Origin: Chloroflexota bacterium
GTDB taxonomy: Bacteria; Chloroflexota; Anaerolineae; Aggregatilineales; Phototrophicaceae
Reading direction: 5' to 3'
Length of the DNA: 64,000 nucleotides
NCBI GenBank assembly: GCA_011523735.1
Contig: WTGB01000130.1
Coordinates: 1-64,000, forward strand
In this document: positions 54,890-63,819 of the stretch, one piece after another
How the letters are laid out: each line of letters begins with the position of its first letter
Position numbering within the stretch: the stretch's first letter is position 1
Notes under the pieces: model-generated
Database searches by the model: none
The model's input: the letters and a program-made list of their open reading frames with translations, nothing else
Told to the model about the DNA's origin: nothing
Translations under genes and position numbers: made by a program

Positions 54890-57800
54890 TCAGAGCTGCT
54901 GCGCCCGCACCGCCCCCGAGCCGGTCGCTTCTATCTTCCGGCTGATGTAGGACATGATATAGCTGAATACAAAGAAGAGGATCGCGACGTACAAGAAGGT
55001 CTCCTGGCGCTTTTGCAGGAATTCCGCCTGCGCCACGACGCGCGAGGCGACGCCGAGGATATCAGCCAAGCCGACGATGAAGACCAGCGATGTATCCTTG
55101 AACAGTGAAATGAACTGCCCCACCAGCGCCGGAATCACCGCCCGCAAAGCCTGTGGCAGCAAGATGTAGAGCGTCGCCTGCCAGTTGGACAAGCCGATCG
55201 CTTGCGCCGCTTCAGTTTGGCCGCGGTCGACTGACTGCAAGCCGCCGCGCACATTCTCCGCCAGATAGGCGGCGCTAAACATGGTAAAAGCGACCCAGGC
55301 GCGGACTGCCTGGTCAATTGCCGCCAGATTCGGGTCCACCAGCGGGACAAGCAGTGAGGCTAGAAACAGTATCGTGATCAAGGGCACGCCGCGCACCAAC
55401 TCAATGTAGAGAATACAAGTGTATTTCACCACCGCGAGATTGCTGCGCCGTCCCAGCGCCAGCGCCAGACCAATAGGGAAGGATGCGGCGATGCCCAGCA
55501 CCGTCAACTGCATGGTGATCATCAAGCCGCCCCAAAGCCGCTTGTCAGACAAGGGCAGCAAGTCATCGGGCGATGCCTGCAGGGCGCCCTGCGCGCCCAA
55601 ACCAGAGATGATGCCGGGGATGATCCATATAGCGGCGAGCCAAGCCCCCGCCACCACAGCGATGCTATGCAACGGGTATCGATTGAAGAGCCATCCGCCG
55701 CGCGCGCCTAACTCCGTCCGCTTGTCCAGTTGGCTCCCTTCGCCTCGCTTGAAGACGACCACGCCGCCAGCCAGCCAAATGACGAAATAAATCGTTGACC
55801 AGCGATCAACCCCGGTGAAACTTTGCATCCACAAGAATGTCAGCAGCAACAATCCAATGATGATTCGATTTGAGGTCCATTTGGTGGCGCCGCTGAAGAA
55901 CATCCAGACGATCCACAACAGGAAGGCCAGACCTGCCAGCATCCCCACCGCGCTATCGGCGGTCGCCGACGCCACATTCGTATTGAGCAGCACGAAGGGG
56001 AAGGCGATGCAGCCGATCAGAAAGCCGTAACGCTTGGTTGCCATGTTCATCGCGCCATTTAGTCGCGTGCCGCCGATGCCGGCCAATATGCCGACGACGG
56101 CAAGCGCCAGCCAAAGCAGTATCGAAATCGAATGATCGGTATACCAGCCCTCCCAAACCAGATTGATAAGGAAAGCTTGCGCGATCTGCAAGAAGAATCC
56201 GCCGACCAGCAGCGCATAGCCGAGTGTTCCTCTGAAGTTGAGACCGACAAAATACATCAGCAGCAGCCAGAATAGACCGCCGACCATACTGCCAAGCGTC
56301 GCGCCTGAGAGACCGCCGATGCCCGATCCCAGCGCGAACATGATTAAGGGATAGGCGCCCCAGCCATAAATCAGAAGGCGATTGGTTGAGCCTTCGGCAT
56401 CCTCGCCCCGATTAGTTCGGTTGAGCCAGGTTTCGCCCCGGCGCACCGCCAATACAGCGCCGTAGGCAGCCGCGATTCTCAGGACCACCCCAATAACGCC
56501 GGTGATCGTCCCATCTCCGTCAAGCAAAGCGAAGTAGACAAGCAGGATGAGCAGGGGCGTCATCGACCAGGCCAAGACCGTGGCTCGACTGCTGTTGTTA
56601 TTGAAAACCGAGTTCTCGCCGAGCAAGTGAGCCGCCGCTCGCCCCAGGATGAATCCCCAGGCGACGGTGATGAGGAAGGGTATCAGCAGCGCTTCGACCT
56701 GTTCAAAAAACGGCGGAATGAAGTGAATCAAATAGGTTTGCAGATCACGAAGGCCGCGAAACTGATTGTCAATCAATACGGCAACGGGTATCGGTCTGCC
56801 ATCGCGCAGCGGACGGCTGTCTGTAACCACCAACTCGTTGTCGGTCAAGCGCACAAATTGCGATTCGGTGGCGCTGAGTGTACGCTCGACAATCGGGTAG
56901 ATGCCAGTCGCCGCCAGGATCGTGCTGCCGTCTTTACCCTCGGCCGCGTTCTTGCTCAGGATATACCAGCCGTCCTCAGGTATATCGAAGCTGACACTGT
57001 CGCCGGCCCCGCTCAAGATACCCTCCGCCAGCGCCGCCCGCGTCTGCGCATCAAGGATCGCCACCGCCATCGGCGTCTGACCGAGCTCGTAAAGCTCAAG
57101 CACGGATTGGGGCGTCAGCAAGCGCACAAACATATCCCGCAGGAATGCGGCTTCCCGCGGCAAAGGCCGGATGAGTTCTTCATCCTCATCGGCTTGGTCT
57201 CTTTCGCCGATGAAATCTTCCGAAAGCTGCACGACGAGAAGCTCGCCCAAGTCTTCCAACTGTTCGCTCGTCAGTACCGTTACCGTCAAATGTTCGATAG
57301 CATCCTGCAGTTCAGCCGGTATCACATCGTTGACCGATAGGTTTTTGACCGCGTCGTCAACTGATTCAGCCTCGACCAGAATAACGTCCGCGCGCGGGTC
57401 CAAGCCTTTGGCGGCGCCTTCCAGCCGGCCCAGCCAAAAGCGCAACTCGCCGACTTCGCTCCCGGCTGAACTGAGGCGCCCGCCGATATGCGCGACGTAG
57501 TCTTCGGTCGAAGCCAGCATGTCATTCGTGCGCGTGAAAGTTCGGATATTCAACCGCGTGCGTTCTTCGAGCGATTCGGTCAATTCGCCACTGGCCATTT
57601 GATCGAAAGTCTCGCCGGTTTTGGCCCGCTGTTCAATTCGGTTTAGCGCGGCGTTCCCCAATGCGTTTGAGCCGCGGTCGGAGAAACCCGATAGCCGGCT
57701 CAAGGTTTCGATGTCGACGACTTCGTCAAGCGCGAGGCTGATTGAAACGCTCTCGCCCGCCTGCGCGATAAACGCCAACTCAGCCTGTGGCGTCAGCGCG

Positions 57801-58288
57801 GTGGCGCGGTCGACGATGTCGACATTGCCAGCCGTGAGGTAGGAGCGAGGCTGCTCGATGGTCGCTTCGATAACCGATGGCAGCACGCCGACGATAATCA
57901 CTGCGCCAAGCGAGATGCCCGCCAGTATGCGCACGGAACGGCGCGCCCAGGCGGCCAGGCTCATACCGGTCAACAAAGCGGCCAGCAGCACGGTAAGCGC
58001 CAGGCGCCACTCGAACTCCGGTTCAAATGACAGCATCATAAAGAGACGCTGATTGTTGATGATGGCGAACCAGTTGGCCGAACGAATCGCCCAGTCAAAG
58101 AAACTGATTAGTAAACCCAGGATAAGCAGCGATGACACGATGGTGACGACAATATCCGCCGGCGAACTAAAGAGGTTCTGCCGCATCCAACCGGCTAAAC
58201 CGACCTCGAGTTTCGGTGGCGGCTTCGCCGGCTCATCCTGATAATGGATGATCGACCTGCCCGCGTCCGCGTTCATTTGCTCCGACAT
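54890..58288 (-). CDS. aapM: Giant AapM-like amino acid ABC permease (1132 residues)
   Basis: Residues 1 to about 80 match the AapM head (RQNLFSSPADIVVTIVSSLL). The last 270 (about 860-1132) are the normal permease with GGLMITMQLTVLGIAASFPIG, ELVRGVPLITILF and the EAA motif QTEAAQAIGLSNWQATLYIL. Between them lie about 700 extra residues: an extracytoplasmic region of about 400 (from about 150) rich in acidic and coiled-coil segments, and about ten membrane helices (about 545-840). AapM proteins are normally near 400 residues. The frame is continuous, with no sign of a stop or shift. The extra part may be a sensor, scaffold or separate transporter fused in; its job is unknown. Confidence 0.8.
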   Translation of the reverse strand: MSEQMNADAGRSIIHYQDEPAKPPPKLEVGLAGWMRQNLFSSPADIVVTIVSSLLILGLLISFFDWAIRSANWFAIINNQRLFMMLSFEPEFEWRLALTVLLAALLTGMSLAAWARRSVRILAGISLGAVIIVGVLPSVIEATIEQPRSYLTAGNVDIVDRATALTPQAELAFIAQAGESVSISLALDEVVDIETLSRLSGFSDRGSNALGNAALNRIEQRAKTGETFDQMASGELTESLEERTRLNIRTFTRTNDMLASTEDYVAHIGGRLSSAGSEVGELRFWLGRLEGAAKGLDPRADVILVEAESVDDAVKNLSVNDVIPAELQDAIEHLTVTVLTSEQLEDLGELLVVQLSEDFIGERDQADEDEELIRPLPREAAFLRDMFVRLLTPQSVLELYELGQTPMAVAILDAQTRAALAEGILSGAGDSVSFDIPEDGWYILSKNAAEGKDGSTILAATGIYPIVERTLSATESQFVRLTDNELVVTDSRPLRDGRPIPVAVLIDNQFRGLRDLQTYLIHFIPPFFEQVEALLIPFLITVAWGFILGRAAAHLLGENSVFNNNSSRATVLAWSMTPLLILLVYFALLDGDGTITGVIGVVLRIAAAYGAVLAVRRGETWLNRTNRGEDAEGSTNRLLIYGWGAYPLIMFALGSGIGGLSGATLGSMVGGLFWLLLMYFVGLNFRGTLGYALLVGGFFLQIAQAFLINLVWEGWYTDHSISILLWLALAVVGILAGIGGTRLNGAMNMATKRYGFLIGCIAFPFVLLNTNVASATADSAVGMLAGLAFLLWIVWMFFSGATKWTSNRIIIGLLLLTFLWMQSFTGVDRWSTIYFVIWLAGGVVVFKRGEGSQLDKRTELGARGGWLFNRYPLHSIAVVAGAWLAAIWIIPGIISGLGAQGALQASPDDLLPLSDKRLWGGLMITMQLTVLGIAASFPIGLALALGRRSNLAVVKYTCILYIELVRGVPLITILFLASLLVPLVDPNLAAIDQAVRAWVAFTMFSAAYLAENVRGGLQSVDRGQTEAAQAIGLSNWQATLYILLPQALRAVIPALVGQFISLFKDTSLVFIVGLADILGVASRVVAQAEFLQKRQETFLYVAILFFVFSYIMSYISRKIEATGSGAVRAQQL

Positions 58289-61102: not shown

Positions 61103-61249
61103 TGCTGCAATCCTCCAAGATTGACATTGGTCAGATAGATCTGCTATGCGGAAACCAAGAACAAAGAATCAACGGTTCCGCAGAGCATTTCACTTATAGT
61201 CTAAAGGAGAACGCGACTTATGTCAAAACTCAAGCGAGGATATCAACAA

Positions 61250-61288
61250 GAGAAAACCGCTCGTTAAAGGAAACCCTAACAGAGCGGT
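61250..61288 (-). terminator. Rho-independent terminator after the SelW-like gene
   Basis: On the minus strand ACCGCTC and GAGCGGT pair around a loop of 19 bases, followed by TTTCTCTT. Confidence 0.6.
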
Positions 61289-61335: not shown

Positions 61336-61629
61336 CTATTTGGCGGCCAACTGAAAATCGGCTGGACGGACAGTCTCAAGCACTTTCATGATGCCGGCTC
61401 TGACTTCGCCCGGCTCCGCGTGCCTGCCCACCGCCTGCTTGGAGAAGACCAACTCGCCATTGACCCAGACATCAAAGACGCCGCCGGTGCCCGGTATGAG
61501 CTTCCAACTGCTGATGAAGTATTCAATTTCACGTTCGTTCAAGATTTCGTCCGTCAAACTGACGGCATTAGGTTGGTGTCCTCAAGTCGCGCAGTACTTG
61601 ACGACGATGTCCATTCCACCTTCTTGCAT
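61336..61629 (-). CDS. SelW-like selenoprotein (Rdx family) with in-frame TGA as selenocysteine
   Basis: 97 residues if TGA 61584-61582 is read as selenocysteine, giving YCATUGHQPNAVSL with the CxxU redox motif (C13, U16) of SelW/SelT/SelH thioredoxin-like proteins. The rest is typical: FISSWKLIPGTGGVFDVWVN, then GELVFSKQAVGRHAEPGEV. ATG 61629 follows AGAGGAGAG; ATG 61614 is an alternative. A hairpin 16 bases after the TGA (CCGTCA, loop GTT, TGACGG) fits the bacterial SECIS pattern with GU in the loop. Downstream reading in the same frame is open to the normal stop. It probably acts in thiol redox control. No sel genes are in the window. Confidence 0.82.
61551..61565 (-). promoter_or_regulatory. 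bSECIS-like hairpin of the SelW-like gene
   Basis: Minus strand: six-base arms CCGTCA and TGACGG with loop GTT. The GU of the loop lies 22 bases after the TGA, within the 16-37 base window known for bacterial SECIS elements. Confidence 0.65.
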
Positions 61630-61778
61630 GATGCGCTCTCCTCTACTAAGACGGATATTTGCGGGTGACAACATTATAACTTAGACGCCGGAAAATGCAA
61701 ACCTGAGGCTGGAAATCGGGATTGCTGACGCCTTGCCTACGGGCGATACGCGCCAAGCCTACTATCAAGCCGATTCGC

Positions 61779-61806
61779 TTGACGGGCCGCCTGCCCAGCT
61801 TATGCT
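61779..61806 (+). promoter_or_regulatory. Promoter of the first CPHLPPR-domain gene
   Basis: TTGACG and TATGCT with 16-base spacing, in an upstream module repeated before each member of this family. Confidence 0.6.
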
Positions 61807-61841
61807 TAGCAATAAGTATTTCGCGGGTAAGGAGCGGACAG

Positions 61842-62666
61842 ATGAACGCGAAACGATTTGCGCCGACCGCAATCGCCCTTGGCTGGCTCAGCATTGCACT
61901 GCTGGCTCTGCCCGCGCGAGCGCAAAGCTTCCGAGGCCACACTTGTGAGAACCTGTGGGAACACATCCACGCTGGAGGCTATGTAATTTTTGACGAGATC
62001 AACAAGTGGTTCTATAAGACTTGCGCAAATGCGGAAAAAGCAGACGATCAACAGGAAAACATTGGAGAGCCAGAGGACCGTCCGCGCGATGTGACCTGCC
62101 CCCACTTGCCGCCCAGGGTCGCCGTCTTTGGCTACGCAGTGAACACCCAATGCCAGATGGTCGGCGAGGTCGTCATTGGGAAGACGGACTTGGTCCAGCG
62201 CGGTTTCATCGACGCGGTCGATGTCTGGAGCTACGTCAATGGCGGGCTGGAAGTCTGTTTCCGCAATAGCGGCTGGCTGGTCTTCCTGGACGCCACCTAT
62301 CTTGAGCGCATGGTCATGGAACTGGAGCAGTACACTCGCGCTGGCATGACCTGTGGCCGGATTGACCGTATTGGAACAGTGGTGCTGCTCCGCTCGGCCG
62401 CGCCGGTTGAAACGCCAACCACCAGCGAAACGCCGGCCACGCTGCCCACATTTGATGCCATCCCGCCGAGCGATTGCATGGTCAAACTGGAGGAGACGCT
62501 TTTCCTGCGCGCCGAGCCAGCCGGAGAGATCATCGGCCTCGTCTGGCTCAATTCTGAAGTGCCCGTCTTCGAGATCAACGGCGACTGGTACAAGGTCGAG
62601 TTCGAGGGAACGATTGGCTACATCAGCCGCCTTTACAGCCGGGTCTTGTACGGCGGCTGCACCTGA
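61842..62666 (+). CDS. Secreted CPHLPPR-domain protein with SH3-like tail, paralogue 1
   Basis: 274 residues with a signal peptide (ALGWLSIALLALPARAQ). The central domain (about 79-180) runs from CPHLPPRVAVFGYAVNTQC through RGFIDAVDVWSYVNGG and FLDATYLERM to GMTCGRIDRIGTVVLL, with four conserved Cys. After a Pro/Thr linker comes an SH3-like C-terminal domain (FLRAEPAGEIIGLVWLNSEV, then WYKVEFEGTIGYISR). The same domain pair occurs in the genes at 35267 and 62857. ATG 61842 follows AAGGAG. Probably a cell-surface binding protein; ligand unknown. Confidence 0.65.
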   Translation: MNAKRFAPTAIALGWLSIALLALPARAQSFRGHTCENLWEHIHAGGYVIFDEINKWFYKTCANAEKADDQQENIGEPEDRPRDVTCPHLPPRVAVFGYAVNTQCQMVGEVVIGKTDLVQRGFIDAVDVWSYVNGGLEVCFRNSGWLVFLDATYLERMVMELEQYTRAGMTCGRIDRIGTVVLLRSAAPVETPTTSETPATLPTFDAIPPSDCMVKLEETLFLRAEPAGEIIGLVWLNSEVPVFEINGDWYKVEFEGTIGYISRLYSRVLYGGCT

Positions 62667-62856: not shown

Positions 62857-63819
62857 ATGATGAACAGGAGACAACTTCAACGACTGTTCCGGCTCGCGCT
62901 CTTCATTTCGCTGGCTGCTGCGCTCCTAGCGCCTCTTCCCGCGCTGGCTCAGAGCGGCGTCAGGAACCTTCGAGCTGCGAAAATTAGTCATAACTCCATC
63001 ACTGTCAAGTGGGACGCTACGCCTGGGTTCTCTACCTATGAAATCTTCTACAGTCCCGTCGGGAGTAATGTTGACTCCTTCGAACTGACCAACGGAACCT
63101 CATTTACGATCAGGGGGCTGCGTCCCCAGACAAACTACCGCATTGTTGTAGGTTATGGCCATCTCGGGCATAGCCAGATCACAGTCCGCACAGCAAAAAA
63201 GACTGAACCTAAAAAAGTCATCAGGTACGTCCCGCCCGATGTGACCTGCCCGCACCTGCCGCCCCGAGTCGTCGTCAGCGACTATATAGAGAATACCCAA
63301 TGCCAGATGGTCGGCGAGGTCGTCATCTCCGGGCAGCCGGATCTGCATGAGCGCGGCTTCATCGATGCGGTGGATGTATGGAACGTTATGCCAGCTGGAG
63401 GCGTCGAAGTCTGTTTCCATTATCACGGCTGGCTCATCTTCCTGGACGCCGCCTACGCGCCGCGCATGGTGACGGAACTGGATCATACGCATCGCGATGG
63501 CATGACCTGCGGCCGGATCGACCGCGCCGGCACGGTGGTGCTGCTCGCCTCAGCCCCGTCCCTGAGGCCAGTGACCCAGCCGGCGGAAAACACCCTGCCC
63601 GTCTTTGAAGCCACCCCGCTGAGCGATTGTCAGATCAAACTGGTGGAGACGCTCTTCCTGCGCGCCGAGCCAGGCGGCGAGATCATCGGCCTGGTCTGGC
63701 TGAATTCCGAGGTGTACGCCTTCGAGATCAATGGCTATTGGTACAAGATCGAGTTCGAGGGCGTGACTGGCTATATCAGCCGCTACTATCGGGAAGTTTT
63801 GCGCGGCGGCTGTGGCTGA
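62857..63819 (+). CDS. Secreted FN3-CPHLPPR-SH3-like protein, paralogue 2
   Basis: 320 residues with a signal peptide (FRLALFISLAAALLAPLPALAQ). A fibronectin type III domain (about 33-115, VRNLRAAKISHNSITVKWDA, then TNYRIVVGYG) replaces the short N-terminal part of paralogue 1. The shared domain (CPHLPPRVVVSDYIENTQC to CGRIDRAGTVVLLAS) and the SH3-like tail follow. The two ATG codons at 62857 and 62860 are both usable; AGGAGAAGC precedes them. The gene and its 3' flank are part of a tandem duplication. Confidence 0.65.
   Translation: MMNRRQLQRLFRLALFISLAAALLAPLPALAQSGVRNLRAAKISHNSITVKWDATPGFSTYEIFYSPVGSNVDSFELTNGTSFTIRGLRPQTNYRIVVGYGHLGHSQITVRTAKKTEPKKVIRYVPPDVTCPHLPPRVVVSDYIENTQCQMVGEVVISGQPDLHERGFIDAVDVWNVMPAGGVEVCFHYHGWLIFLDAAYAPRMVTELDHTHRDGMTCGRIDRAGTVVLLASAPSLRPVTQPAENTLPVFEATPLSDCQIKLVETLFLRAEPGGEIIGLVWLNSEVYAFEINGYWYKIEFEGVTGYISRYYREVLRGGCG

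Follow-up and report, generated by a model that had tools for sequence, protein, structure and literature searches.

The window, by which we mean the whole 64,000-nucleotide stretch of DNA that was analysed, carries on its minus strand a reading frame that is opened by an ATG at 61629-61627, crossed by an in-frame TGA at 61584-61582, and closed by a TAG stop at 61338-61336. With the TGA read as selenocysteine (Sec, U), the frame has 97 residues and the motif C-A-T-U, its full translation being MQEGGMDIVVKYCATUGHQPNAVSLTDEILNEREIEYFISSWKLIPGTGGVFDVWVNGELVFSKQAVGRHAEPGEVRAGIMKVLETVRPADFQLAAK. Without readthrough, the longest standard open reading frame is a 73-residue piece that starts from TTG 61557. 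The following features were assigned at the locus.

61336..61629, minus strand: predicted SelW-like (Rdx family) selenoprotein gene, 97 aa, stop TAG; over the cut-offs of PF10262 and TIGR02174, with 71-94% identity to 28 close relatives.
61582..61584, minus strand: in-frame TGA at codon 16, last position of CxxU, putatively read as selenocysteine; TGA in 29/29 loci of other assemblies, where Cys copies have their second Cys.
61551..61565, minus strand: bSECIS-like hairpin CCGUCA-GUU-UGACGG within the coding sequence; class-wide register, 4/6 pairs changed on both sides, fits the bSECIS model.
61637..61644, minus strand: ribosome-binding site (GAGGAGAG region), 5' of ATG 61629; direct reading.
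61673..61701, minus strand: sigma-70-type promoter-like TTTGCA-17-TATAAT; consensus scan, 10 of 12, a sequence match only.
61244..61287, minus strand: probable intrinsic terminator, ACCGCTC...GAGCGGTTTTCT, 3' of the gene, limits approximate; direct reading and fold.

A sequence-only reading of this DNA had proposed both the longer start at ATG 61629 and a ribosome site in front of it, and both, like the frame, the TGA and the hairpin, are located as claimed; relatives also carry purine-rich sites of the AAAGGA type a few bases 5' of the ATG. TATAAT-like boxes occur at a comparable place in several relatives, and of nine relatives inspected most have a similar GC stem and T run 3' of the gene; a strict scan does not list the 61244..61287 element. 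With a promoter-like sequence 5' of it and the GC stem and T run 3' of it, the SelW-like gene probably forms a transcription unit of its own, in front of an amino-acid-type ABC transporter comprising a solute-binding protein and two permeases.

The claim that reading the TGA as Sec restores a SelW/Rdx protein with a CxxU motif is borne out by profile searches, in which residues 8-79 of the full translation match nearly the whole Pfam model PF10262 (Rdx) at 55.1 bits (cut-off 22.6) and the post-TGA fragment alone scores 33.6 bits. The match to TIGR02174 (SelT/SelW/SelH family) also lies above its cut-off (42.5 vs 34.2 bits). By E-value, the best NCBIfam model is NF041051 SelTWH_Campy (67.8 bits, residues 8-78), whose cut-off of 88 bits is not reached, which places the window protein outside that equivalog group. 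In an AlphaFold model built from a 19-sequence alignment (mean pLDDT 74, moderate confidence), the first strand (6-13) ends in the CATU motif (residues 13-16). Foldseek ranks SelW-related proteins first and thioredoxins next, the top matches being solved SelW-related proteins with E about 1e-8 to 1e-3 and TM-scores of 0.83-0.90 by target length. The structures 2FA8, 2OKA, 3DEX, 2P0G and mouse SelW 2NPB have the same fold as the window protein and share 21-32% identity with it, sequence similarity being detectable for most of them. Since the CxxU motif ends the first modelled strand and SelW-related structures are matched first, the protein is most likely a small thioredoxin-fold thiol/selenol oxidoreductase. 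Most bacterial SelW-like proteins have, to our knowledge, no identified physiological substrate.

A scan of genome contigs recovered 29 loci that encode relatives, all in MAGs, of which 28 are titled Anaerolineae or Chloroflexi/Chloroflexota and one plain 'bacterium'. In all 29 relatives, which come from other assemblies, codon 16 is TGA. Across the class, 179 of 396 genomes have an Rdx match, and nearly all of the matches listed contain exactly one stop, a TGA. These data bear on the reading in which the TGA is a true stop in a decayed Cys gene, or a sequencing error for TGC or TGT, and the 73-residue fragment is the product translated. Such a fragment is what mechanical ORF calling gives, but it is without the first strand and the entire redox motif, and the invariance of Y12 and C13 indicates that coding constraint extends 5' of the TGA. 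With the TGA at the same codon in 29/29 homologues from independent assemblies and in most Rdx genes listed for the class, we consider this reading extremely improbable; an assembly error at the TGA can, on the sequences compared, be regarded as excluded because of that conservation. The sequence-only reading had also named close homologues with Cys at this position as evidence that would speak against a selenoprotein, and the close homologues carry TGA, not TGC or TGT.

Two observations were made alongside this comparison. In the close relatives (L018-L045), the base before the TGA (61585, minus strand) is always T, codon 15 being ACT, TCT or GCT; this T is kept despite the availability of synonymous codons and possibly reflects a context effect on UGA decoding. 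The relative titled 'bacterium' (CAR2_bin_19; L046 1501-1722) is a distant TGA homologue with 47% identity and no hairpin in the register of the window gene; it is similar to a second type of SelW paralogue, C-x-P-[U/C]-D-Y-S, of which Cys forms occur in genomes G326, G252 and G350.

The source genome (4.37 Mb in 169 contigs, 95% complete) contains the selenocysteine machinery that the earlier reading had taken the gene to imply, with selA, selB, selC and selD all present, including the selB and selC whose absence it had named as counter-evidence. The tRNA-Sec scores 64.8 bits, over the Rfam cut-off, and has the anticodon TCA (UCA in RNA). SelB scores 343.8 bits, over its cut-off, and has a beta-barrel and the winged-helix domains SelB-wing_2 and SelB-wing_3, while SelA scores 548.7 bits and SelD 383 bits. 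Two further tRNA-Sec candidates, ranked second and third, fell below the cut-off, and the one that was checked is a tRNA-Arg. The SelD gene (L017 1399-2487, minus strand, genome contig C133) has its own in-frame TGA in SCAGU (...ALASCAGUASKL...), the known Sec site of SelD, and a hairpin starts at this TGA. By virtue of this TGA, SelD is a second selenoprotein of the genome, and the window gene is the one Rdx gene detected in it.

An in-frame TGA alone does not identify the residue inserted, and in principle the organism might use an alternative code in which TGA generally specifies an amino acid such as Trp or Gly and not selenocysteine. We regard this as exceedingly unlikely: other genes of the window are open and have normal ends under table 11, homologues have Cys at the position aligned with the TGA, tRNA-Sec, SelA, SelB and SelD are all encoded, and the sole other in-frame TGA seen lies in SelD, at its established Sec site.

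The third element of a bacterial selenoprotein gene, a SECIS hairpin, had been proposed at this locus as six base pairs with GU in the loop at the distance typical of bSECIS elements. Such a hairpin lies at 61565-61551, with six pairs and the loop GUU, 16 nt separating the TGA from the stem and 22 nt separating it from the loop. A published model of the bacterial SECIS allows loops of 3-9 nt and stems of 4-16 bp, requires a G within the first two positions of the loop, and sets a UGA-to-loop distance of 16-37 nt and an energy of at most -7.5 kcal/mol (PMC13188914). The window hairpin falls within every one of these limits (loop 3 nt, stem 6 bp, distance 22 nt), the energy narrowly so, at -7.8 kcal/mol for the surrounding 38 nt; the bare 15 nt have -6.5. 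In one sequence by itself, however, the hairpin is weak evidence, because the 66-nt stretch folds no better than its shuffles (z = 0.40) and 15% of synonymous recodings that use the gene's own codon usage still form such a hairpin; strict hairpins of the same type are found after 1.1% of the window's TGA triplets. At gathering scores, Rfam gave no match in the window, a result that was not weighed against the hairpin because a bSECIS, being a short and variable element, need not be covered.

Among close relatives, however, codons 21-27 show nearly no synonymous variation while the rest of the gene varies freely; mean normalised synonymous entropy is 0.05 over codons 22-27 vs 0.52 for the gene as a whole (permutation p = 2.5e-5), and all of the lowest-scoring six-codon stretches fall on the hairpin. 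Of the six stem positions, five are paired in 52 of 53 distinct sequences and the outermost in 48, and every loop starts with G. In a set of 29 diverse sequences, 98.3% of cells pair, both sides have changed in four of the six pairs, and the other two pairs are invariant. The covariation score of 0.234 exceeds those of all 500 shuffles and all slides (0.124 in shuffles, at most 0.071 when slid); the slides keep relatedness and the shuffles ignore it, so the effect size is to be read with care. Stem variants found across the class are CCGTCA/TGACGG, CGGTCA/TGACCG, CCGCCA/TGGCGG, TCGTCA/TGACGA and CCATCA/TGATGG. The swap of C-G to G-C at columns 33/45 falls on third positions of Ala and Thr codons, both changes being synonymous, and so is not explained by protein constraint. 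From family to family within the class, the register and the loop G stay the same. Judged from these alignments, the hairpin is beyond chance, given the unbroken conservation of the TGA, the loss of synonymous variation at codons 21-27, and the compensatory changes.

Another alternative accepts the selenoprotein and holds that the conserved hairpin is a by-product of protein or codon constraint, the real SECIS lying elsewhere. The protein segment AVSLTDEILNE is itself highly conserved, and the survival of the hairpin in 15% of recodings also favours this view; yet synonymous sites are frozen over the hairpin and free elsewhere, third positions of both arms change together, register and loop G persist across families, and the Cys copies are without the hairpin. 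We judge this alternative very unlikely. The Cys copies in question come from related genomes, and their CxxC aligns to CxxU as a Sec/Cys pair; in the Cys Rdx sequences L048, L072, L091/L092, L100, L113 and L114, no such hairpin was found at offset 22. One of them, L113 (the same gene as L080 493-786, minus strand), has a looser hairpin, ccttaac-AGTC-gttgggg, at offset 23 from the Cys codon, with the loop AGUC and two G-U pairs; its host genome, G326, has no detected tRNA-Sec, and the structure may be a relic SECIS or chance.

Frame, conserved TGA, machinery, conserved covarying hairpin and predicted fold are thus established at the level of sequence, and the window gene almost certainly encodes a SelW-like thioredoxin-fold selenoprotein in which Sec would be inserted at the codon 16 TGA by way of SelB and the hairpin. 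In bacterial Sec insertion, SECIS-bound SelB delivers Sec-tRNA-Sec at UGA, and the parts found here all fit this established scheme. A ribosome translating the gene would reach the UGA at codon 16; SelA would make Sec-tRNA-Sec from selenophosphate supplied by SelD; and SelB carrying Sec-tRNA-Sec would bind the hairpin just 3' of the UGA, delivering selenocysteine. The predicted product is then not a 15-residue peptide but a 97-residue protein with a Cys-Ala-Thr-Sec redox motif, most likely serving as a small thiol/selenol oxidoreductase; we infer both the actual insertion of Sec and the redox activity.

The window gene shares with known bacterial SelW-like selenoproteins (TIGR02174, PF10262) the domain, the CxxU motif, the place of the UGA and a bSECIS just 3' of it, and differs from them only in sequence and in host lineage, a family of uncultured Anaerolineae-type Chloroflexota. 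A 2006 report described bacterial SelW-like selenoproteins and found very few Cys homologues of them among organisms that use Sec (PMC1794560). They form the most numerous selenoprotein family of the Global Ocean Sampling set, with 427 Sec forms vs 56 Cys homologues, and are more abundant in marine than in non-marine samples (PMC2398784). The gene is genuine, but it is of an ordinary and well-described kind, SelW-like CxxU proteins being among the commonest bacterial selenoproteins in published surveys; views on how selenoproteins work are unchanged, and a specialist would not be surprised. Our literature search for SelW in sponge Chloroflexota found nothing specific. What the locus adds is that uncultured Chloroflexota of this kind appear to use selenocysteine and have small SelW genes that mechanical gene calling can shorten; missed SelW genes are a known annotation problem (PMC4607533), and since NCBI has models for such selenoproteins, the gene may already be called whole by some pipelines. 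Additionally, the class-wide set with its covarying hairpin would make a good training or test set for bacterial SECIS models.

Finally, the TGA form and tRNA-Sec (called at E <= 1e-8) were compared over 28 genomes of the window's family. The tRNA was found in 19/19 genomes with the TGA form vs 4/9 without it (Fisher p = 0.0013, uncorrected for relatedness), and it is absent from 5/9 of the latter, including G326, which has Cys forms only. In G344, of the same genus, tRNA-Sec is present and a SelW copy was not detected, a 94%-complete assembly permitting a missed copy. One candidate for a conversion was the Cys protein of G326, taken as the orthologue of the Sec protein in its genus-mate G252; alignment showed it to be a different paralogue, and we therefore claim no Sec-to-Cys conversion. 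It is conceivable, albeit rather doubtful, that SelW and SelD constitute a long-kept minimal selenoproteome of these bacteria, with the SelW SECIS register fixed and its loop nearly fixed over many families of the class, and with genomes losing tRNA-Sec having lost the Sec form or keeping only a Cys paralogue. If true, this would be a new evolutionary case and not a new mechanism.

Two further observations concern other genes of the window. One ABC transporter permease (54890-58288, minus strand) has 1132 residues, an unusual size for an amino-acid permease; its permease domain is confined to the C-terminal part (938-1118), and the long extra N-terminal part has no Pfam match. On the plus strand, 61722-62666 and 62857-63819 encode two adjacent proteins that look secreted and are clearly related; each has a bacterial SH3 domain at its C-terminus, and the second has a fibronectin type III domain as well. 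The pair probably arose by tandem duplication.
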